Shown in pieces: positions 8,742 through 32,397 of a DNA stretch of 52,500 bases. The stretch's first letter is position 1. Each line of letters starts with the position of its first letter. The position numbers and the translations under genes were made by a program. Origin of the DNA: Salinibacter grassmerensis. GTDB lineage: Bacteria > Bacteroidota > Rhodothermia > Rhodothermales > Salinibacteraceae. The stretch spans positions 1 to 52,500 of the forward strand of contig NZ_CAMTTF010000005.1 of the NCBI RefSeq assembly GCF_947077765.1, read 5' to 3'. Under the pieces are notes generated by a model, which searched no databases, had not been told where the DNA came from, and worked only from the letters and a program-made list of their open reading frames with translations.

Positions 8742-9530
8742 TTACCGCTTCACGTTGTTGGCGGTCTGCATCATTTCGTCGCTGGTGGTCACCATCCGCG
8801 AGTTCAGCTCGTAGGTGCGCTGGGCCTGGATCAGGCTCGTCATCTCCTGCACCACCTTCACGTTTCCCTTCTCCAGGAAGCCCTGGCGCACGTTGCCGAG
8901 CCCTCCTCGTCCCGGCGTTCCGATGAAGGGCTCCCCGCTCGACTCCGTCTGCTCGTAGAGGTTGCCCCCCTGTGGCCGCAAGCCGCCGGAGTTGGAGAAG
9001 CGGGCGAGCTCCATCTGGCCCAGCTCCACCATCTCGGACTCCCCCTGCAGCCGCGCCTTGACCGTTCCTTCCTGGTCGATGCTGATCTCCACCGCGTTGG
9101 GCGGCACGTTGATGTTCGGCTGCACCTTCAGTCCGGTCTGGGTGACGATGTTGCCCTCGCTGCTGAGGGTAAACGTGCCGTCGCGGGTGTAGGCGAGGGA
9201 CCCGTCCGGCTGCTGCACCTGGAAAAACCCATCGCCGTTGATGGCGAGGTCTAGGGAGTTGCCCGTCTTGGAGAAACTGCCCTGTGAAAAGTTGCGCACT
9301 GTGGCGACGGAGGTGGCGCCGCTTCCAATCTGGAGCTCCGCGGGCTCAGCGCCGTCGGTCTGTCCCTCCGCGCTGGCCTGCACGTTCTCGTACAACAGGT
9401 CCTGAAAGACCACGCGGGACCGCTTGTACCCGGTCGTATTGGCGTTGGAGAGGTTGTTCGCAATGTTGTCGATACTGGTCTGCTGGGTCTGCATTCCCAG
9501 CGCAGCCGTCTGGAGAGAGCGAGGGGGCAT
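8742..9530 (-). CDS. flgG: Flagellar distal rod protein FlgG (262 aa)
   Basis: Distal rod subunit. The N-terminus LQTAALGMQTQQTSIDNIAN followed by NLSNANTTGYKRSRVVFQDLLYE is the conserved rod/hook signature. The middle has NSLDLAINGDGFFQVQQPDG and YTRDGTFTLSSEGNIVTQTGL, typical of FlgG and FlgE. The C-terminus KVVQEMTSLIQAQRTYELNS with MQTANNVKR is diagnostic of FlgG. The length (262 aa) is exactly the family standard. It is separated from the flgF gene by 39 bp and from flgA by 31 bp, in one minus-strand operon. Confidence 0.96.
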   Translation of the reverse strand: MPPRSLQTAALGMQTQQTSIDNIANNLSNANTTGYKRSRVVFQDLLYENVQASAEGQTDGAEPAELQIGSGATSVATVRNFSQGSFSKTGNSLDLAINGDGFFQVQQPDGSLAYTRDGTFTLSSEGNIVTQTGLKVQPNINVPPNAVEISIDQEGTVKARLQGESEMVELGQMELARFSNSGGLRPQGGNLYEQTESSGEPFIGTPGRGGLGNVRQGFLEKGNVKVVQEMTSLIQAQRTYELNSRMVTTSDEMMQTANNVKR

Positions 9531-9569
9531 AGGCGTCGAGAAACAAAAATTTGAAAGAGAGTGCCGCGT

Positions 9570-10295
9570 CTACATGCCGCCGAGCGACTGGGTCGCACGG
9601 CCCAGCACCCCATCGGTCGTCTGGATGGTCTTCTGCTGGGCCTCGTACTGGCGCTGGTGCTCAATCATGTTGGTGAGCTCGGTCACCGGGTCCACGTTGC
9701 TGGTCTCCACCTTGCCCTGCAGCACGACCGGGTCCTCGGCCGTCTGGGCCTGGGCATCTCCGGCCGCGAAGGCAGCGCCGTTCGTCCGCTCTAGCTGCTC
9801 GGGGTTCTCGAACGTCGCGACGCGAAGGGACCCGACCTCCTCCTGGCCCGCGGTGATCCGGCCGCTCTTGGAGATGCTGACGTCGCCGCCCTCCTCCACC
9901 GGGATCTGGATCGGGCCACCCTCCCCCATCACTTCTCGCCCCTCGGGCGTGCGGAGCGTCCCCTCACTGCCCACCACGAAGTGACCGGCCCGCGTGTATC
10001 GTTCGGCCCCGCCCCCACGAGGCTGAGTGACGAAGAACCCCTCGTCCCCCAGCGCCACGTCGAGCGGGTTTCCTGTCTTCTTGAGGCTCCCGCCCGACAG
10101 GTCGTTGGCCTGCTCCAGGCGCCGGTCGCTGATCGGCGACCCGTCTTTCGTGAGGCGCTCGTTCAGGGCCTCGGTGAAGACGCGGTCCTTCTTGTAGCCG
10201 GTGGTGCTGGCGTTGGCGAGGTTGTTCGCCACCTGCTCTTGCTGGAGCCGCATCTCACTCATGGCGGCGGCGGCGTTCTGGAACCGGGGAAGCAT
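9570..10295 (-). CDS. flgF: Flagellar proximal rod protein FlgF (241 aa)
   Basis: Rod protein of the FlgF/FlgG family. The N-terminal motif MSEMRLQQEQVANNLANAST then GYKKDRVFTEAL is conserved. The central NPLDVALGDEGFFVTQPRGG and RYTRAGHFVVGSEGTLRTPEGRE are typical. The C-terminus TELTNMIEHQRQYEAQQKTI then TTDGVLGRATQSLGGM matches FlgF. The frame is open for 37 more codons upstream, but the ATG at 10295 puts the D0 helix at the N-terminus, so it is preferred. It is the first gene of the visible operon, so the promoter should lie upstream, in 10296-10420. No flgB, flgC, flgD, flgE or fliE gene is in this window, so the rest of the basal body is encoded elsewhere. Confidence 0.9.
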   Translation of the reverse strand: MLPRFQNAAAAMSEMRLQQEQVANNLANASTTGYKKDRVFTEALNERLTKDGSPISDRRLEQANDLSGGSLKKTGNPLDVALGDEGFFVTQPRGGGAERYTRAGHFVVGSEGTLRTPEGREVMGEGGPIQIPVEEGGDVSISKSGRITAGQEEVGSLRVATFENPEQLERTNGAAFAAGDAQAQTAEDPVVLQGKVETSNVDPVTELTNMIEHQRQYEAQQKTIQTTDGVLGRATQSLGGM

Positions 10296-10373
10296 GGCGG
10301 GGCCAGAGGACGATGAACGGATCGGTCTGTTGGACTCTAAGGGCCTTTCAAAGAGCCTACCAGGTTCTGAGAG

Positions 10374-10387
10374 TGGGGCGCGCCCCA
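10374..10387. promoter_or_regulatory. 14-bp palindrome upstream of the flagellar operon
   Basis: The sequence TGGGGCGCGCCCCA is a perfect palindrome about 80 bp upstream of the flgF start. It lies inside the 402-bp gap between flgF (minus) and the SH3-like gene (plus). The rest of this gap holds no convincing gene; a TAGAAT element at 10669-10674 is a weak -10-like match for the plus-strand gene. The palindrome could be an operator for either divergent unit, but a chance GC palindrome is possible. Confidence 0.3.
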
Positions 10388-10697
10388 GCGCCGGGACCGG
10401 AACCACTCCTGCTCGGGCACAATTTTCCGACCCGTTACGGCAGATCCTGCCGTCCTCGCAGGCGGATCACGGTCCGGGCGAATCGTGACGCAATGGCGGC
10501 CCGGCGGCCCTGATTCGTGGGGAGGCCTTCAGGGCGGACCGCCAATGAGGCCGTCGGGAGCCGGCTGGCTCCTCAACCGGTGACGCCCCGCCGCCGGCGC
10601 CACGCCGCAATTGTCTCGGCCCCGCTCCCCGCGTCAAAACGAGGGGCCCCAGCACGGCGTACACTGGATAGAATCTTCGCCGTACTTCCTCTTCCCG

Positions 10698-11676: not shown

Positions 11677-14403
11677 ATGCGCACCTGCCTCCTCGCCCTC
11701 TCTGCTCTCCTGTTGGCCGTCCCGCTTTACGGCCAGTCCGCCGACGAGGCCCCTTGGACCATCGACCACGTCCTCACACAGCGCTCGCTGACGGACGTGA
11801 ACATCGGGCCGGACGGCAGCCGCGTACTGTGGGTCAAAGAGACGCCCGATCCCGACGCCGACGAGACAACGTCGGACGTCTACCTGACCTACCGGGACGA
11901 TCCGCACGGCGGCGACTCGACGGCCACCCTCCAGCTGACGCGCACCGGCGACAACCGCGCCCCACGCTGGAGCCCGAACGGGGAGCACATCGCGTTCTTA
12001 TCGTCTCGCGGGACGGAGGCGGAAGACGCCGGCGGCACTCAGCTCTGGCGGCTTGACCCACGGGGCGGGGCACCCGAAGCCGTCACCTCAATCGAACACG
12101 GGGTGCGAGGCGCCCGGTGGGTCGACGACGACCGGCTCCTCGTGACAGCCCGCGAGCAGAGCACCCGCTACGAGGAGCACCTCGAACAGACGGAGGACGA
12201 CGCCGACGTCATCGAGGACACGACGCTCTTCCGGCCGGTGCGCCTCTTCACCGTCCACGTGGCGACTGGGGACGTGACGCGCGTGACGGACAATGATCAC
12301 CAGATCAGGGAATTCGCTCCGTCGCCGAACGGCCGATACGTGGTCTACAGCCTCGACGACTCTCCGATCGACGCTGACGCCCGCAATCAGCCGCACCAGT
12401 TTCTGCTGAACCTTGAGACGGACAAGACGACCGAGATTTTCGACGAGCAGTACGTTGACCCGTCCAACTATCAGTGGACGGCCGACGGCAGCGGCTTTTA
12501 TGCCACCGACTCGCATTCCTCCGACCCCGAGCACGAGGGCGCCGGCATCACGAAATTGTACCACTACACCCTCGCCGCCCGTGATTACCAGGAGGTGCCC
12601 CTGGCGTGGGGCGACAAGGGCGTCGGCTATGGGGGATACACGGTCGTGGACGGCGGGGTGCACGTGCAGCTGGCCGACGGCCCGACCTTCGAGCCGCGCT
12701 TCTACCGGAAGACGAGCGGCGGATGGACGCCGGAGGAGGTCACCGACGAGCGACTCGAACACGCCTCCGCATTTACGGCGGGCCCGGACGGTGAAACGGT
12801 TGTCTTCAGCCACTCGACCGCCGACACGCCGCCGTCGTACCGTGTGGGCACCTACCGCAACGGCGACATCCAGAGCGATGAGACCCTAACGACGCTCAAC
12901 GAGAATCTCGACGACCTGCCGATTCCGCGGGCCGAGGTCGTGGAATGGGAAGGAGCCAACGGCGAGACCGTCAACGGCATCCTGCACTACCCGCTCGACT
13001 ACGACCCGGACCGGGCCTATCCCATGATGACAGTCATCCACGGCGGGCCCAGCGGGGTGGACCTGGACGCCTGGAGCCTCGGGTGGACCGTCTACGCCCC
13101 GCTCCTCGCCCAGCGCGACGCGTTCGTCTTCCGCCCCAACTACCACGGCTCCGGCCACCACGGCCTGGACTTCGTGGAGTCGATTAAGGGCCAGTACTAC
13201 GAGCTGGAGATCCCCGACATCGTACGCGGCATCGACAGCCTGACCGCCGCGGGCACGGTGGACCGGGACTCGCTCGGCGTGATGGGCTGGTCAAACGGCG
13301 CCATCCTGACCACACAGCTCACCATCGAACATCCCGAGCTCTTCCGGGTGGCCGCGCCCGGCGCGGGCGATGTCAACTGGACCTCCGACTACGGCAACTG
13401 TGCCTTCGGCGTGCGCTTCGACCGGTCCTACTTCAAGGGCGCCCCCTGGGCGTACACCGAACACTACATCGAAAAGAGCCCGCTCTTCGAGATGCCGAAG
13501 GTGCGAACCCCCACCCTCATCCACCACGGCACCGAGGACCGGGCCGTCCCCTACGAACAGGGCTGGGAGTACTACCGCGCCCTCCAGCAGATCGGCAACG
13601 CGCCGGTCCGCTTCCTCAGCTACCCCGGCGAGCCGCACGGGCTGGGCGAGCTCTCGCACCAGCGGCGCAAGGTGGAGGAGGACCTGAAGTGGATCGATAC
13701 ACACCTCTTCGGCAAGACCTCGATGCAGGAGCGCGTCTCGGAGCGGCTGCTGGCCGACGACGCACCGCTCTCACTCCTCGAAACCGCCGACGTCCCCGCC
13801 CGGACCGACGGCCGGTACGGCGAGCAGGTGGACGGCCGTCTCGTCCCCGAGACCGTCACGCTCGGCGACACCCTCACGGTGGGGCGGTTCGAGGTGACGC
13901 GGGCGCAGTTCCAGGCGTACGATGCTGACTTCGAGGTGCCATCCGGCACCGCCGACCACCCGGCCCACGGCATCTCCGCGGACCGGGCCCAGGCGTACGT
14001 CGAGTGGCTGCGTGAGCAGACCGGCCGCGCCTACCGCCTCCCCACCGCGGAGGAACTGGCGGCCCTGAAGACGGCCCGCGCAGGGACGTCCGAGAACACC
14101 CCCGCGTACTGGGCCGGCTTCACGCCCACCCCGGACGAGTTCCACCAACTGCGGGCGCGCTTCGCGCAGCACTCCACCGATGCCCTCCTGATGCCGGTGG
14201 GCAGCCGCCCCGCCGGGCACGGCCCCGACGGGGGTGGGCCGCTCGTCTACGATGTGGACGGCAACGTGGCCGAGTGGGCCCGTGCCGACGACGGCCTTCA
14301 GGCCCAAAACGCCTCGGCACTCACCCTGACGGGTCCGAGGGCCGACGCCGCCCCAACGCCCCCACGCCGCGTGACGGGCGTCCGGGTCGTGCTCGACCGA
14401 TAG
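11677..14403 (+). CDS. Secreted S9 prolyl-oligopeptidase-family peptidase fused to an FGE-like domain (908 aa)
   Basis: An N-terminal signal peptide (MRTCLLALSALLLAVPLYGQ) is followed by a beta-propeller with WD40-like/TolB-like repeats (for example RVLWVKETPDPDADE and PRWSPNGEHIAFLSSRG) and then an alpha/beta-hydrolase peptidase domain. Catalytic residues seen: Ser539 in GWSNGA, Asp621 in HGTEDRAVPY and His654 in YPGEPHGLGE, the order expected for peptidase family S9. S9 peptidases cleave short peptides. After about residue 715 a second unit starts: VTLGDTLTVGRFEVTRAQF, YRLPTAEELAALKTA, DVDGNVAEWA and ending RVTGVRVVL. This resembles the formylglycine-generating-enzyme (sulfatase-modifying factor) fold, here shortened (about 185 aa). 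The fusion is unusual. The ATG at 11677 is chosen because it starts the signal peptide. Confidence 0.88.
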   Translation: MRTCLLALSALLLAVPLYGQSADEAPWTIDHVLTQRSLTDVNIGPDGSRVLWVKETPDPDADETTSDVYLTYRDDPHGGDSTATLQLTRTGDNRAPRWSPNGEHIAFLSSRGTEAEDAGGTQLWRLDPRGGAPEAVTSIEHGVRGARWVDDDRLLVTAREQSTRYEEHLEQTEDDADVIEDTTLFRPVRLFTVHVATGDVTRVTDNDHQIREFAPSPNGRYVVYSLDDSPIDADARNQPHQFLLNLETDKTTEIFDEQYVDPSNYQWTADGSGFYATDSHSSDPEHEGAGITKLYHYTLAARDYQEVPLAWGDKGVGYGGYTVVDGGVHVQLADGPTFEPRFYRKTSGGWTPEEVTDERLEHASAFTAGPDGETVVFSHSTADTPPSYRVGTYRNGDIQSDETLTTLNENLDDLPIPRAEVVEWEGANGETVNGILHYPLDYDPDRAYPMMTVIHGGPSGVDLDAWSLGWTVYAPLLAQRDAFVFRPNYHGSGHHGLDFVESIKGQYYELEIPDIVRGIDSLTAAGTVDRDSLGVMGWSNGAILTTQLTIEHPELFRVAAPGAGDVNWTSDYGNCAFGVRFDRSYFKGAPWAYTEHYIEKSPLFEMPKVRTPTLIHHGTEDRAVPYEQGWEYYRALQQIGNAPVRFLSYPGEPHGLGELSHQRRKVEEDLKWIDTHLFGKTSMQERVSERLLADDAPLSLLETADVPARTDGRYGEQVDGRLVPETVTLGDTLTVGRFEVTRAQFQAYDADFEVPSGTADHPAHGISADRAQAYVEWLREQTGRAYRLPTAEELAALKTARAGTSENTPAYWAGFTPTPDEFHQLRARFAQHSTDALLMPVGSRPAGHGPDGGGPLVYDVDGNVAEWARADDGLQAQNASALTLTGPRADAAPTPPRRVTGVRVVLDR

Positions 14404-14596: not shown

Positions 14597-16021
14597 ATGG
14601 ACCGCACCTCCATTCAGGAACGCTTCGGCATCGTCGGCGAGTCCGACGTCATCAAGAACGTGATCGACCAGGCCCGGCAGGTGGCCGACACGGACATCAC
14701 CGTGCTCCTGCAGGGCGAGAGCGGCGTCGGCAAGGAGCTCATCTCTCAGGTGCTGCACGAGCTCTCGATGCGCCGCCACGAGAAGATGGTGGTGGTCAAC
14801 TGCGGGGCCATTCCGGAGGGCCTCATCGAGAGCGAACTGTTCGGTGCCGAAAAGGGAGCCTACACCGGAGCCGTCGAGGAGCGTGTCGGCTACTTCGAGG
14901 AGGCGGACGACAGCACCATCTTTCTCGACGAGATCGGCGAGATGCCCATGGAGGCACAGGTACGCCTCCTCCGTGTGCTCGAGACCGGCCAGTTTACCCG
15001 CGTCGGCGCGTCTCAGCAGCAGCAGGTCGATGTCCGCATCGTGGCGGCGACGAACAAGGACCTCGCCGAGGAGGTGCAGAAGGGCAATTTCCGCAAGGAC
15101 CTGTACTACCGCCTGAGCACGGTCCTCATCGACATTCCGCCGCTGCGGGAGCGTCCGGACGACATCCTGCCCATCTTTGATACGTTCCTCCACGAGTTCT
15201 CGCAGGAGTACAGCTCGTCCCGCAAGCGGCTCACGGAGGACGCGGAGGAGCTCCTCGAGTCGTACCGCTGGCCGGGCAATGTGCGCGAGCTCCGAAACAT
15301 CGCCGAGCAGGTGGCGGTCCTGATGCGCACGAATGAAGTGTCGGCCGACGACCTGCGCCCCCTTCTCCGCGACCTCGGGCAGGCCTCGACCTCGACGGGC
15401 CTGATGCGGGTGGAGCCCGATCCCCAAGAGCCGGACGCGGGCGTCGGCACCGAAGACGATCTTCGCCAGCGTGAGTTGCTGTACCGCGCCATTCTGGAGA
15501 TGCGCATGGACATGCGCAACCTGAAAGAGCGGATCGACTCCCTCATGTCGAACGTGGGCGTCGTGGTGCCCCGCGAGGTGGCCGAGCGCGGGGACTTCCC
15601 AAGCGACTACGACGACTTCGTGGTCGTGAACAGCGAGGACGGCCCCGCGACCTCCCGCCCTCACCGCGAGCGCGAGCAGCGGGGCGGGGGCAAGGTCGAC
15701 TCCATGATGCGGGACGTCATCTACGAGGTGGAGGAGAGTGGCCCCGCCCGGCCTACGAGGCCCCGCCCGGATCGCCCCTCGGCGCCTGAGCCGGGGTCGC
15801 CGCCCTCCGCGGAGCCCGAGGCCGAAATTGAGGCGGACCCGGCCAAGGACCCGGATCAGGAGACGGCGGACGAACTGCCCACGCTCGAGGAGTCCGAAAA
15901 ACAGCTCATTAGCCGCGCCCTCAGGCGGTTTGATGGCAACCGCCGCAAAACGGCCGACGCGCTCGGCATTAGCGAACGCACCCTCTACCGCAAGCTCAAA
16001 GACATCGACGAAGACCTGTAG
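14597..16021 (+). CDS. Sigma-54-dependent transcriptional activator without receiver domain (474 aa)
   Basis: Bacterial enhancer-binding protein. The AAA+ domain starts almost at the N-terminus. It shows Walker A GESGVGKE (about residues 39-46), the sigma-54 contact loop GAYTGA (about 87-92, a GAFTGA variant with Tyr), Walker B FLDEIGEM (about 109-116), then RLLRVLETGQFTRVG and an arginine-finger region FRKDLYYRLSTVLIDIPPLRER. About residues 255-425 are a poorly conserved, acidic, Pro-rich linker. The C-terminus LISRALRRFDGNRRKTADAL with ISERTLYRKLKDI is a Fis-type helix-turn-helix. There is no response-regulator or GAF domain, so activity must be controlled another way, for instance by a partner protein. 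It is followed by an LptE-like gene, a linkage I recall from other Bacteroidota. Confidence 0.9.
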   Translation: MDRTSIQERFGIVGESDVIKNVIDQARQVADTDITVLLQGESGVGKELISQVLHELSMRRHEKMVVVNCGAIPEGLIESELFGAEKGAYTGAVEERVGYFEEADDSTIFLDEIGEMPMEAQVRLLRVLETGQFTRVGASQQQQVDVRIVAATNKDLAEEVQKGNFRKDLYYRLSTVLIDIPPLRERPDDILPIFDTFLHEFSQEYSSSRKRLTEDAEELLESYRWPGNVRELRNIAEQVAVLMRTNEVSADDLRPLLRDLGQASTSTGLMRVEPDPQEPDAGVGTEDDLRQRELLYRAILEMRMDMRNLKERIDSLMSNVGVVVPREVAERGDFPSDYDDFVVVNSEDGPATSRPHREREQRGGGKVDSMMRDVIYEVEESGPARPTRPRPDRPSAPEPGSPPSAEPEAEIEADPAKDPDQETADELPTLEESEKQLISRALRRFDGNRRKTADALGISERTLYRKLKDIDEDL

Positions 16022-16446
16022 GGGCGCGGGGAGACAGGGAGTCTGTGCCGTACACTGCGCGCTGCCACGACGGAATTCTCAGACGAAGAGACGTGCTCGG
16101 CGGTGGACCAGGTTCGACACTTCTCCCGGTCACGGTGTGCGCACACGCTGTCGAAGCGTGACGTCGGCGCCGCTCCACCGGTTCCTTTCGGCTCAGGCCG
16201 GGAGGCGCTGGGAGCGCAGCGGAGGAGACAGGTGCTGCGAGTCGGGCGTGCCTGCCGATGTGGGGACCTCGACGGGAAGGATGCGAGGGGGCTCGATGAG
16301 CAGTACGACCAAGTGCCCGGTCGGCTGGTGCAGATGCGCCCGAACACTGACGACTGGATTCTCCGAACGTAGCCGATAGCCTCATGCCCTCCCCTCCTCC
16401 TACGTCGCCGCGTCGCCACGCCCCCGGCTCGCCGCACCTCTCTCGC
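16022..16446. other. 425-bp gap with no gene seen
   Basis: No open frame here looks like a real protein: those present are Arg/Ser/Ala-rich shadows. It contains a perfect 12-bp palindrome GTGTGCGCACAC (16135-16146) and a distant pair CGGTGGA (16100-16106) / TCCACCG (16175-16181) that could form a stem. It could be the leader or promoter region of the LptE-like gene or host a structured RNA; neither is proven. Confidence 0.4.
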
Positions 16447-16965
16447 ATGGGCACTCGGCCCCTCCTGTGCGCTCTGTTGCTTCTCTTCGGGGCGGGCAGC
16501 CTCTCCGGCTGCACCGTCTACAGCTTCAGCGGCGCCAGCATCCCGTCCAACCTCGAGACCATCTCGGTTCCGATCGCCCAGGACAACACCTCCAGCCCCG
16601 TCAACCGGCTCGGCGCCGACTTGACGGACCTCCTCACCGACCGGTTCGTCGACCGCACAAGTCTCTCCCTGACGACCGACAACGCCGGCGCCGATGCGTT
16701 TCTGACCGCCCGCATCCAGCGCTACACGAACGAGCCCACCGGCGTCAGCGGCGATGAGCGCGCCACGACGAACCAGGTCACCATCCGGGTGCAGGTGCGC
16801 TACGTCGACCAGACGAAGGACGAGGAGCTCCTGAGCCAGACGTTCAGCGGCTCCGCCAACTACAATCCCGTCGAGGCGGGCCTCGACGGGGAGCGGCAGG
16901 CCATCCAGAATGCGCTCGAAAACGTGGCCGACGACATCTTTAGCACGGCGACCTCGAACTGGTAG
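16447..16965 (+). CDS. lptE: LptE-like outer-membrane LPS-assembly lipoprotein (172 aa)
   Basis: Putative component of LPS delivery to the outer membrane, the LptE partner of LptD. The start at 16447 gives a short lipoprotein signal (LLCALLLLFGAGSLSGC, lipobox LSGC, Cys at residue 22), then TVYSFSGASIPSNLETISVP, the typical opening of the Bacteroidota LptE family. The rest (VNRLGADLTDLLTDRFVDRT, NQVTIRVQVRYVDQ, LSQTFSGSANYNPVEAGLDG) is the beta-rich domain with a C-terminal helix. An ATG at 16384 in frame is possible but would bury the lipobox. It ends only 4 bp from the end of the convergent asparaginase gene. Confidence 0.82.
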   Translation: MGTRPLLCALLLLFGAGSLSGCTVYSFSGASIPSNLETISVPIAQDNTSSPVNRLGADLTDLLTDRFVDRTSLSLTTDNAGADAFLTARIQRYTNEPTGVSGDERATTNQVTIRVQVRYVDQTKDEELLSQTFSGSANYNPVEAGLDGERQAIQNALENVADDIFSTATSNW

Positions 16966-16969
16966 TCCG

Positions 16970-18055
16970 CTATTCTTCGTCGAAAAGCCCCGGGATCTCG
17001 ACCCGGCGGACCCCGTCGGCGTCGCCTACCACCATCTGGCCGCTGCCCCGCATCTGCGCCCCGCCAAACTCACCGTCTTTCCGAAGCGCGTAGAACCGGA
17101 CGCCGAAGTTCGGCTCGTCCCGTGCATTGAGGAGTCGAGGGACCTGGGTGTTCTCCGCGATGCGGCGACAGGCAAACAGGCACGCCTCCTTGGGCGTGTC
17201 GCCGGCCCGCATCCGCTCCACGATGAGGTAGCTCGACAGGTTTTTGAGGTTGGCCTCCCCGCGTCCCGTAGAGCCCGCTGCGCCCACGTCGTTGTCGGCG
17301 TAGAGGCCCGCCCCCACGACCGAGGTGTCCGCCACCCGGCCCGGAATCTTGTAGAACAGCCCGCTGGTGGTCGTGACGGAGCCGATGTTGCCGTTGGGGG
17401 CGAGGGCCGAGCAGTGGATGGTGCCGTAGTGTCGCTGCACCTCGCGCACCTTTGCCCCGAGTGCCGGGTCCTTCAGGCTGTCGGGCGGCAGGTAGTTGTC
17501 CTCCTGCGACAGGTTCTCCTTCCATTCCACCCAGATCCTGCGGGCCTGCTCAGTGAGAAGGTCCTGCGTCTCGACCCCGTGCATCTTGGCAAACTCCTTC
17601 GCGCCCGCCCCCACCAGTCGGACGTGGTCGGTCCGCTCCATGACCAGGCGCGCCACCTGTGAGGGCACCGGAATGTCTTCGAGGACCGCCACCGCCCCGG
17701 CCCGGTGCGTCTTTCCCTCCACCACCCCCGCCTCCAGCTGCACGGTCCCCTCGGCGTTCGGGATGCCGCCGTACCCCACCGTGATGTCGTCGGGGTCGCG
17801 CTCGACAATGTTCACCCCTTCAATCACGGCGTCCAGTGCCTCCCCCTCCTCGGCCATCACCGCCAGGGCTCGCTCGGCAGCTGGCGCGCCGTTGTCGCTC
17901 GCCACCACCAGCGGGCCGCCGTTGGCCCCGGCGTCGAACGACGGCGATTCTCCCGACGCAACCTGCGGCAGGGCGGCCGCCCCGGCGCCGGCCAGCGCCG
18001 CGCGTTTTAGAAAGGTGCGACGGGACGAAGACGGGGAGGAGGCGTCGTCGGACAT
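16970..18055 (-). CDS. N4-glycosylasparaginase / isoaspartyl peptidase family, Tat-exported (361 aa)
   Basis: Ntn-hydrolase of the glycosylasparaginase type, which self-cleaves and hydrolyses N4-(beta-N-acetylglucosaminyl)-L-asparagine or beta-aspartyl peptides. The N-terminus has a Tat signal SSRRTFLKRAALAGAG. The segment YGTIHCSALAPNGNIGSV then TTTSGLFYKIPGRVADTS and GAGLYADNDVGAAGSTGRGE is highly diagnostic. Thr212 (in YGTI) aligns with the nucleophile at the autocleavage site. The residue before it is Gly rather than the Asp of classical aspartylglucosaminidases, as in many bacterial isoaspartyl peptidases. The start at 18055 is chosen because it begins just before the twin-arginine motif. 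The usual length fits. Confidence 0.92.
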   Translation of the reverse strand: MSDDASSPSSSRRTFLKRAALAGAGAAALPQVASGESPSFDAGANGGPLVVASDNGAPAAERALAVMAEEGEALDAVIEGVNIVERDPDDITVGYGGIPNAEGTVQLEAGVVEGKTHRAGAVAVLEDIPVPSQVARLVMERTDHVRLVGAGAKEFAKMHGVETQDLLTEQARRIWVEWKENLSQEDNYLPPDSLKDPALGAKVREVQRHYGTIHCSALAPNGNIGSVTTTSGLFYKIPGRVADTSVVGAGLYADNDVGAAGSTGRGEANLKNLSSYLIVERMRAGDTPKEACLFACRRIAENTQVPRLLNARDEPNFGVRFYALRKDGEFGGAQMRGSGQMVVGDADGVRRVEIPGLFDEE

Positions 18056-18155
18056 ACGTTCGCGGACGTGACATTGGGGGGAGGCCATGCATCCGCAGAA
18101 GGTAACAAGGAACGCTGAGAAGCAAAACCATGCGCCCCCCGGCGCTCTACACAAC

Positions 18156-19211
18156 TCAGTACATCGCCGACGAGCGGGCGTCGTGGCGCCGGGCGTACGC
18201 CACCATCGCCGAGGCATAGTCCGGCAGGAAGGGACAGGCGATTCCCGTTCCGTCGAGAGCCGCCCGCGTGCTCGACGCGTCGTACCGGGACGAGTGGTCG
18301 AAGTAATCGATGAGCTCCGGCGCAATGCCGAGCGCCCGTCCCACGCCCGTCCTCATCATTGCCCGCGCCAGGTCGGGGGGCACCGGCACGTACGCCACTC
18401 GCTTGTCCAGCAGGTCGGCGAGCAGCTCCATGAGGGCCTGGGCCGTGAGCGGGCGCGGGTCGGTGAGGTGGAAGACCGTGCCCTCGTGCCCGTCCGCCCC
18501 CAGAAGGTGGCCCATCGCGTCGACCACGAAGTCGACCGGCACCAGGTTCACCGGCTCGGTTCCCGAGCCTACGCGGGTCATGAGCGTGTACCGCGGCAGC
18601 CGGCGCAGCGCATTCAGCACGAAGTATACCCCATCGAACTTGTCCGTCTCGCCCGTCTTGGAATCGCCCACTACGATGCTCGGGCGGAAGACGAGGGTCG
18701 GGATTTCGTCCATGCGGTCCTGCACCAGCACCTCGGCGTGGTATTTCGTCTCCTCGTAGAAATTCTTGAACCCGGCATCGTGGACGAGCTCGTCCTCATA
18801 GACCGTGCCTGTTCGCTCGCCCGAGACATAGGCGGAGCTGACGTACCCGAAGCGCTCTAGATTGGGACTCCGGGCGAGCAGATCAAGCACGTGCCGCGTG
18901 CCCTCCACGTTGACCTGCCAGCCGACCGGTCGGGGAATCGTGAGGTCGTACACGGCGGCGAGGTGCACCGCCCGCGTGATCTGCTCGGCCACCGCATCGT
19001 AGCGCCCCTCAAGGCCCAGGTCCGGCTCCGTGATGTCGCCGGGCAGCACCGTCGCCCGGTCGGCCAGCCCCAGGTCGGCGAGCAGCGTGTGCGTGCGCCC
19101 CTCGAACTTGGGCTGGACGAGCAACAGGAACGAGGCCCCGGGCTCCGCCGCGGCGAGGCGGCGCAGGAGGCGCGTGCCGAGGAAGCCGGGGACGCCGGTA
19201 AGAAAAAACAT
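18156..19211 (-). CDS. NAD(P)-dependent thioester-reductase / epimerase-like protein (351 aa)
   Basis: Extended SDR-fold protein of the thioester-reductase (NAD_binding_4, male-sterility-like) group. The start [20 protein letters not shown] has the nucleotide-binding TGxxGFLG loop at residues 5-12. [14 protein letters not shown] and [14 protein letters not shown] are typical. The catalytic YxxxK appears as [30 protein letters not shown] matches the substrate-specificity region of fatty-acyl or peptidyl thioester reductases. No acyl-carrier or adenylation domain is attached, so it acts alone. The substrate is unknown: fatty acyl thioesters (aldehyde or alcohol production) are one option, nucleotide-sugar epimerisation another. 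It diverges from purL; the 235-bp space between holds both promoters. Confidence 0.82.
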
Positions 19212-30612: not shown

Positions 30613-32397
30613 ATGGCAACTCGCTGGCACACGTCGATCTCCGCCCCCGGCCAGGCCTGGGTCTCATTCGTCGGGGCGTGGGGGCTTCTGACGCTGCTCC
30701 CCTTCCTTCCGTCCCTCGCGACGCCACGCCCCCGAAGTCCGTATTTTCCCCTCTGCGTGGAGGTGCTGGTACTCGGGACGGCGGTCGTTTACACCCACCG
30801 GACACGATGGGCCCGCACCGCTCGCCTCGGAGCGGGCCTTGGCCTCGGGCTCCTGCTGGTGTACCAGGTGTACGACGCGACGGCCTACGTCGCCACACGC
30901 CGTAGCGGCATCTTCTACGAGGACCTGCAGTACGTCGACAACCTGATCTACTTCGTGTTCGACCTCTGGTCGTGGCGCGTGGGCGTCTTCGCCCTCCTGG
31001 TGGTCGTCGGAATTGGGGGACTTGTGTGGCTCGTGGCGTGGGGCCTCCGGACGGTGGGCCGGACGGCGCAGTATGGAGGCTGCCGGGCGGTCCTGCTAGC
31101 CACGCACCTCGCGGCCTGGCCCCTCGTCGCCGTGGTGGGGCCGGCCCTGGAGCTCGGCCCCGTGAACATGACGTACCAGTCGTCGGGCGAGCGGACCCGG
31201 GTGCGCACGACGACCACCCGCGCCGTCGCCAATGCCCAGGCCTCGCTGCGCCTCCGAACGATGCTCGACTCGATGCAGACAGCCCCGGTCGATTCGGCCT
31301 ATGCGGATTACGACACCCTTGCCCTCGACCGGCGCCCCCCAGTCTATCTTCTCATGGTGGAGTCGTACGGGTCGGCCCTCAACACGCATCCGTCGCTTCG
31401 TGCTCCATACCGGGCCCTCATGCGACGTACCGACTCGGTCTTCGCCGCGGACGGCTGGCACCGGGCCACCGCCCGGAGCGACATTCCCGTACGGGGCGGG
31501 CGGTCGTGGCTTTCCATCGCTTCTCTTCTGACCGGCACACGGGTGGGCCACCAGTTGCTCTTCAACCAATTCCAGACTGCCTCGGACGATTCGACCCGTA
31601 CGGTGCCCCATCTCGTCCGCTTCTTCAACGGGCAGGGCTACCGCACCGTGGCCCTCCAGCCCTTCACCTTCGAGCGCCCCGGGCTCCCGGTCCGCAACCT
31701 CTACGACTTCGACGTTCCCACCTACCGGGACGACCTTAATTACCGGGGCCCTTCCTACAGCCTGGCGGATGCCCCCGACCAGTACAGTCTTCACCACACG
31801 CACGAGACGCACCTAGCCCCCTCCAACGACCCATTCTTCCTCTTCTTTGAAACTGTCGATTCGCACTCGCTCTGGAACTACGGCCTGCCGCCCTACCTCG
31901 ACGACTGGACCCAGTTTAACGAGCACACGGAGGCCGACCGCTCGCCCCACCCCAATTCGGAGTCCTTTCCCCCGGTCTTTCTGCCGGACTCCATCACCGA
32001 TCCCACCATTTACGACCAGCCCACGCCGTTGCGCTACCTCCGCCACGTGGCCCACGAGATGCGCGTCCTTCGCGAATACCTGATCGAGAAGGCCCCGCCC
32101 GGCAGCCTCGTGCTTCTGCTCGGCGACCACCAGCCGCCCCTGATTGACTCGGCGGACCGCACGGTTCCCCTTCACGTGCTGAGCACCGACTCGACGCTGG
32201 TCGCGCACGCCCGTCACCATGGCTTTACGAAGGGCCTCCTTCCTGCGCCCGAAAGCTCAACGTTTCGCCAGGAGAGCCTGTACTCGTTCCTCGTCCGCCT
32301 GCTGGCCGCCCACGACCGGGGGGCTGTGCCGACGGACACGACCGCCCTCCCGCCGCTGCAGCCGCGGGGGGTGCCGCCGTCCCTGCTGGTGCAGTAG
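30613..32397 (+). CDS. Membrane sulfatase / LTA-synthase-like phosphoglycerol transferase (594 aa)
   Basis: The N-terminal third is membrane-embedded (about four or five hydrophobic stretches, for example WVSFVGAWGLLTLLPFLPSL, LGAGLGLGLLLVYQVY, VGVFALLVVVGIGGLVWLVA). The rest is an alkaline-phosphatase-superfamily catalytic domain outside the membrane: VYLLMVESYGSALNTH (metal-site Glu), VRGGRSWLSIASLLTGTRV (position of the nucleophile), PFFLFFETVDSHSLWNYG and LVLLLGDHQPP (metal-binding Asp-His). This is the LtaS/OpgB/sulfatase layout. The usual catalytic Thr is not obvious; a Ser in GGRSWLS is the likely candidate. It follows the CDP-alcohol transferase gene by 58 bp on the same strand and may be its functional partner. 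Substrate unknown. Confidence 0.82.
   Translation: MATRWHTSISAPGQAWVSFVGAWGLLTLLPFLPSLATPRPRSPYFPLCVEVLVLGTAVVYTHRTRWARTARLGAGLGLGLLLVYQVYDATAYVATRRSGIFYEDLQYVDNLIYFVFDLWSWRVGVFALLVVVGIGGLVWLVAWGLRTVGRTAQYGGCRAVLLATHLAAWPLVAVVGPALELGPVNMTYQSSGERTRVRTTTTRAVANAQASLRLRTMLDSMQTAPVDSAYADYDTLALDRRPPVYLLMVESYGSALNTHPSLRAPYRALMRRTDSVFAADGWHRATARSDIPVRGGRSWLSIASLLTGTRVGHQLLFNQFQTASDDSTRTVPHLVRFFNGQGYRTVALQPFTFERPGLPVRNLYDFDVPTYRDDLNYRGPSYSLADAPDQYSLHHTHETHLAPSNDPFFLFFETVDSHSLWNYGLPPYLDDWTQFNEHTEADRSPHPNSESFPPVFLPDSITDPTIYDQPTPLRYLRHVAHEMRVLREYLIEKAPPGSLVLLLGDHQPPLIDSADRTVPLHVLSTDSTLVAHARHHGFTKGLLPAPESSTFRQESLYSFLVRLLAAHDRGAVPTDTTALPPLQPRGVPPSLLVQ

Follow-up and report, generated by a model that had tools for sequence, protein, structure and literature searches.

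The formylglycine-generating enzyme (FGE) has two key cysteine catalytic residues (PMC12421860). A cryo-EM study of PorK describes an FGE-like fold which lacks both of them and acts as a docking hub, the substrate groove having been converted to a protein interface (PMC12421860). Domains annotated as FGE-type have also been recorded on peptidase chains. These include the putative metacaspases, 33 of 671 of which carry an FGE-sulfatase domain (PMC3501461), and the prolyl oligopeptidases, for which the Figure 3 legend of a 2014 survey of prokaryotic members lists "FGS-Formylglycine-generating sulfatase" among the partner domains (PMC4522959). Section 8 of that survey does not discuss the pairing of S9 and FGS or its cysteines, and the main text of PMC2605481 does not mention FGE, formylglycine or sulfatase. 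We found no description of a function for such proteins in the literature on prolyl oligopeptidases or S9 peptidases with FGE-type domains.

The DNA examined here (the window) is the whole stretch of 52,500 nucleotides from Salinibacter grassmerensis. It contains a gene whose product, referred to below as the S9-FGE protein, joins an S9 peptidase to an FGE-like domain. The reading frame starts with ATG at 11677, encodes 908 amino acids and ends with the stop codon at 14401-14403. Its features, in protein and window numbering, are as follows.

11677-14403, + strand: whole gene, S9 peptidase plus C-terminal FGE-like domain, 908 aa and a stop codon (translation, Pfam)
11677-11739, + strand: signal-peptide-like N-terminus, about residues 1-21, MRTCLLALSALLLAVPLYGQS (reading of the sequence)
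11752-12876, + strand: beta-propeller, about residues 26-400 (Pfam PD40, and mostly strands in the model)
12877-13707, + strand: S9 alpha/beta-hydrolase, about residues 401-677, with Ser539, Asp621 and His654 (Pfam, triad, fold match)
13708-13791, + strand: linker, about residues 678-705 (model pLDDT, alignment)
13792-14400, + strand: FGE-like domain of C-type-lectin fold, residues 706-908, with no Cys (PF03781, model, fold search)
8742-10406 (- strand), 14606-16021 (+ strand), 16384-16965 (+ strand) and 16970-18325 (- strand): neighbouring genes, comprising two of the flagellar FlgE/F/G family, a sigma-54 activator with a Fis-type HTH, LptE and an Asparaginase_2-family gene

The occurrence of peptidase and FGE-like domain in one protein is far above chance. 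As far as the legend in PMC4522959 goes, the proteins listed there are alike in pairing an S9/POP domain with a formylglycine-generating sulfatase domain, and this pairing of domain types is therefore already in print. The metacaspase fusions share the union of a peptidase with an FGE-sulfatase domain on one chain, but they are homologues of caspase-type cysteine peptidases while the window protein belongs to S9 (PMC3501461). The N-terminus (MRTCLLALSALLLAVPLYGQS) looks like a Sec signal peptide, no lipobox being visible by eye in the window protein, and the orthologues have N-termini of a similar kind. The protein had been predicted to be a secreted chain carrying both domains; both domains and the signal-like N-terminus are indeed present, and export is presumed from the latter.

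The family comparisons use an alignment which retains 36 of 38 rows; the two omitted are L054 and L059, which are truncated by the ends of their contigs, and L017 and L052, similarly cut, are also absent. All counts out of 36 include the window's own sequence. Peptidase_S9 is found by Pfam at residues 475-677 (E 8.8e-39; 133.6 bits against a cut-off of 22.6) and a PD40 repeat at residues 89-125, and Ser539, Asp621 and His654 are identical in 36/36 sequences. The S9 assignment thus has a domain score, a Ser-Asp-His triad and an N-terminal beta-propeller behind it. The whole-chain model, built from 36 sequences, has a pTM of 0.72 and was judged from its per-residue values, not from inter-domain errors. 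Its closest fold match is 8wt1, the Geobacillus S9 carboxypeptidase (Z 34.0; rmsd 2.6 A; 610 aligned positions; model residues 25-678). Together with the Deinococcus S9 peptidase 5yzm and the Pyrococcus acylaminoacyl peptidase 4hxg, this structure shares the propeller and hydrolase arrangement (Z 30.9-34.0 over 563-610 residues) but only 18-25% identity over the aligned part, and none of the three alignments extends beyond model residues 25-690, leaving the FGE-like domain with no counterpart. The peptidase part, which the original prediction had described as a normal propeller plus alpha/beta-hydrolase with this same triad, has the acylaminoacyl-peptidase/S9-carboxypeptidase fold and is probably active.

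One loop of the hydrolase, residues 566-581 (window 13372-13419; VNWTSDYGNCAFGVRF), contains five residues invariant in 36/36 sequences (D571, G573, C575, F577 and G578), C575 being the sole Cys among the invariant residues of the aligned S9-FGE proteins. The pLDDT falls below 50 at 566-580 despite these invariant residues. The loop could act as a lid or form an interface.

For the C-terminal domain, Pfam analysis of the whole protein gave FGE-sulfatase (PF03781) at residues 726-872 (E 9.1e-9), while the C-terminus alone scored 41.1 bits (E 2.2e-10; cut-off 23.3). PF03781 was the only Pfam family matched at E <=0.01 by the C-termini, and this in 36/36 aligned sequences. The AlphaFold2 model of residues 706-908 (36 sequences; mean pLDDT 89.8) has the FGE/C-type-lectin fold, and Foldseek returned 19 matches at E <=0.001, all of them FGE-fold proteins: PvdO, CarF, ToxD, CalU17, PorK, OvoA, FGE and its human paralogue, and Treponema variable protein 1. 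On structural realignment the scores were highest for Treponema variable protein 1 (Z 15.6; 2.7 A; 155 residues), followed by PvdO (Z 14.4; 3.1 A; 158 residues), human FGE (Z 13.2; 2.8 A; 154 residues) and the bacterial FGEs (Z 11.5-12.2); with ToxD and CarF included, 150-161 residues are shared. The window domain differs from these FGE-fold proteins in lacking the FGE Cys pair, in being compact and in being joined to a peptidase. A chance or low-complexity match to PF03781 is ruled out by the Pfam scores, the model, the fold search and the 36/36 C-termini. The proposal of an FGE-like domain on the peptidase chain was therefore correct, and the FGE/SUMF-like motifs quoted in its favour occur in the translation where they had been placed, but the domain starts slightly earlier than the 13840 then given, at about residue 706-716 (window about 13792-13822).

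In profile searches against solved structures the top matches were PorK/GldK of the type IX secretion system (9myj, 9mzu and 9ots), with whole-sequence E values of 3e-13 to 5.1e-13 which sum several short stretches, the best single stretch having an i-E of 0.0009. ToxD (E 6.4e-11) and PvdO (E 8e-9) came next, and ToxD was the best solved match of a single-sequence query (E 2.9e-5). The likeness to PorK lies in a Cys-less FGE-like fold; PorK differs in that it is a ring protein anchored in the outer membrane, carries large insertions (PMC12421860) and has no peptidase. Membership of PorK/GldK itself is ruled out by a GldK equivalog score of 12.5 bits against a cut-off of 350.

Twenty residues of the domain are invariant in 36/36 sequences: G715, L722, P724, D731, F738, T741, Q744, Y774, W777, L778, R787, P789, E793, N807, G814, G862, N863, E866, G901 and R903. 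Since many of them (RLP, GN..E, G-x-R) resemble residues of the fold, they give no pointer to a binding surface. The domain is under purifying selection in 12/12 pairs (dN/dS 0.086-0.404).

No Cys occurs beyond residue 700 of the window protein. Across the alignment the domain has no Cys in 34/36 sequences and a single one in L036 and L037, immediately after the AEW motif in both, so that the FGE active-site pair is found in none of the 36. In the aligned sequences the closing G-x-R follows the GN of GNVAEW after 33-41 residues (39 in the window). The host genome and its relatives also contain full-length FGE-like domains with an RGGSW-type loop, and 13 of these gave a distance of 62-67; a pattern search had located the motif in 14 of 30 loci, of which L095 was set aside since the domain end was not reached. 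These values indicate that the segment with the RGGSW loop has been contracted by more than 20 residues. The original prediction was right that the unit is shorter than usual FGE domains and has no Cys pair.

A profile search of the host genome revealed no PF00884 sulfatase above the cut-off of 25 bits; two matches fell below it, at 23.1 and 20.5 bits, one of them at window 31513-32142. Sulfatase activation by a working FGE is ruled out by these two absences, of Cys and of an above-cut-off sulfatase. An active formylglycine-generating enzyme, which the PF03781 score above the curated cut-off would permit, is consequently a reading to which we give almost no credence, and judged from its sequence the domain is almost certainly not a working FGE.

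Two side observations concern the same protein types. The product encoded at window 30613-32397 (+ strand), 594 residues long, matches Sulfatase at 22.9 bits, below the threshold of 25. The sole other PF03781 protein found in the host genome (L001; G000:C3:170449-171138; 580 aa) has a full-length FGE domain, by eye a hydrophobic stretch, a GN to G-x-R distance of 62, and a tandem-95-type repeat match below cut-off (72.5 bits against 90).

EgtB/OvoA sulfoxide synthases possess a His-rich iron site. The domain could be another working enzyme of the superfamily, which would modify peptides before or after cleavage by an iron-dependent EgtB/OvoA-like or a PvdO-like oxidation. The structural matches include PvdO and EgtB/OvoA, and the domain has weak NCBIfam scores for PvdO (35.0 bits; cut-off 500) and OvoA (17.1 bits; cut-off 400). 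Against this, neither His nor Cys is conserved, the domain columns occupied in the window protein having His in at most 11 of the 36 rows, and the segment from GN..EW to G-x-R is contracted. The lack of a conserved His rules out an EgtB-type metal site, and we regard other enzymatic roles of this kind as improbable.

Given the compactness of the domain and the absence of the Cys pair, an FGE-type oxidase is very unlikely, and a role in binding or as a scaffold is the better reading. This had been suggested at the outset; its non-oxidase half is upheld by the missing Cys pair, the lack of a conserved His and the contracted segment, while binding itself is something we infer. In the explanation that we prefer and consider probable, the S9 peptidase is exported and bears at its C-terminus a non-catalytic FGE-fold module for docking or ligand binding. 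The peptidase would most likely be active, the FGE-fold domain would have lost its sulfatase-activating chemistry, and the tail, on its short linker, would bind a partner, a surface or the substrate and thereby place the peptidase there.

S9 peptidases select their substrates through oligomerisation and gating. The main rival explanation, a possible one although we lean away from it, is that the domain has a structural role within the molecule: it would serve oligomerisation or gate the S9 active site so as to set substrate size, with no outside partner. The position of the domain suits this role: it follows the hydrolase directly and lies at the extreme C-terminus, with <=5 residues after it, in 62/62 ORFs with a complete domain (64 ORFs carry both domains, repeat copies included, and the remaining two are truncated where their contigs end). 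The fusion has been kept since a single origin, and Pro697 of the linker is invariant in 36/36 sequences, which could mean that the domain is docked in a fixed position on the peptidase and not tethered. What speaks for a tether is the pLDDT below 50 at linker residues 691-702 of the predicted model, which may be compatible with a flexible connection, a shallow alignment being the alternative cause. The FGE-like domain also has a higher dN/dS than the hydrolase in 11/11 pairs where both could be computed, a faster evolution which is a poor fit to a tight shared interface, and the same genomes contain S9 peptidases without the FGE-like domain.

A more specific version of the docking explanation rests on the analogy with PorK. 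The Cys-less tail would be a PorK-like docking module by which, in Rhodothermota and relatives, the S9 peptidase is held after export at one particular assembly of the cell envelope. We consider this unlikely as it stands; if true, the FGE fold would have been turned into a protein-docking hub once more in the same part of the tree, this time for placing a peptidase.

We constructed a tree of S9 domains from 39 fused and 15 unfused rows. The former are what remained of the 64 two-domain ORFs after removal of 22 regarded as repeat copies of one genome, the partial L017 and L052, and L079 (a fused member of f58); L053 and L055, probably from one genome, were both kept. The unfused rows are the 15 of 16 S9-only sequences that cover at least 220 model positions. 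All fused rows lie on one side of a single branch with a support of 100/100, present in 100% of 200 bootstrap trees, at a split where the tree tool flagged long branches meeting. Among the rows sampled, S9 sequences therefore place the fusion at a single origin; the unfused rows are those returned by the searches, and a nearer unfused relative of the fused group is possible. Families f1, f3, f16, f18 and f58 each group in the tree, f33 does so weakly (85/48), and the lone f19 row joins f58 on a long branch. An orthologue with 54% identity to the window protein (L051, 6001-8715), from a MAG titled Calditrichota, is sister to the window's family (f1) plus f3, a position which suggests horizontal transfer or a mislabelled MAG bin.

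The S9-FGE protein is well conserved within its lineage, and the pairing of its domains is old. Whole-protein matches at E <=1e-80 were obtained in 18/395 genomes of the phylum sample, in 43/244 genomes and 17/89 genera of the class, and, outside the class, in 6/61 genomes of one family, where they end at residues 870-907. In the class 42/43 matches reach residue 869 or further and hence include the FGE domain; the remaining one (G024) is cut off at 790, where its contig ends, and another contig of that genome carries a fragment corresponding to 751-906. The phylum of the Calditrichota-titled MAG has the fused form in 2/40 genomes (G599 and G626, the match in the latter running up to residue 829, the end of its frame) and two further genomes with 29-31% matches which end at 686 and 700. 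Among the named carriers are Salinivenus iranica, Salinivenus lutea, a Rhodothermus sp. and the MAG titled Calditrichota. With this spread, and its listing in the legend of PMC4522959, the earlier view of the combination as unusual finds no support. At the same level most of the class genomes searched have no match, nor does one of the same genus (G006, 99% complete), so that the protein is dispensable.

The finding is accordingly an ordinary one, a domain architecture which is real, well conserved and uncharacterised. The FGE fold is frequently annotated as an enzyme, and this Cys-less family warns against names of the "sulfatase-modifying" type; it also provides a clean test case for the role of non-catalytic FGE domains.

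The gene neighbourhoods of the window and 16 other loci were compared through their best 25 clusters, with ORFs called mechanically, a procedure which weak conservation could escape. Among these clusters only the S9-FGE gene is common to all 17 loci; no partner or ligand of the domain emerged, nor a neighbouring gene kept throughout the lineage. Two clusters, of 16 and 5 loci, follow in size and to judge from their coordinates resemble antisense reading frames of the S9-FGE gene, and the remainder comprise 2 or 3 loci each. Family f3 has a lipase-like alpha/beta-hydrolase gene directly upstream of the S9-FGE gene and on the same strand in 7/7 genomes examined (L015, L016, L033, L034, L035, L054 and L055), and it is possibly an operon partner there. 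The lipase-like gene at L053:5104-5964 scores 33.4 bits with Abhydrolase_1 (cut-off 25.8). A relative with 44-46% identity lies about 5 kb from the S9-FGE gene in L070 (family f16); within the best 25 clusters, neither the window nor the 13 other neighbourhoods compared showed the lipase-like gene.

The clusters flanking the gene in the window are, among the best 25, shared with one of the 16 neighbourhoods, that of a genome of the same genus (L065). In a further MAG of this genus (L024; G002:C51) the frame at 1501-1977 joins residues 1-102 to 850-908 as if the middle had been deleted, which is likely to be an assembly error; by eye, a sigma-54-activator-like gene comes next, as it does in the window.
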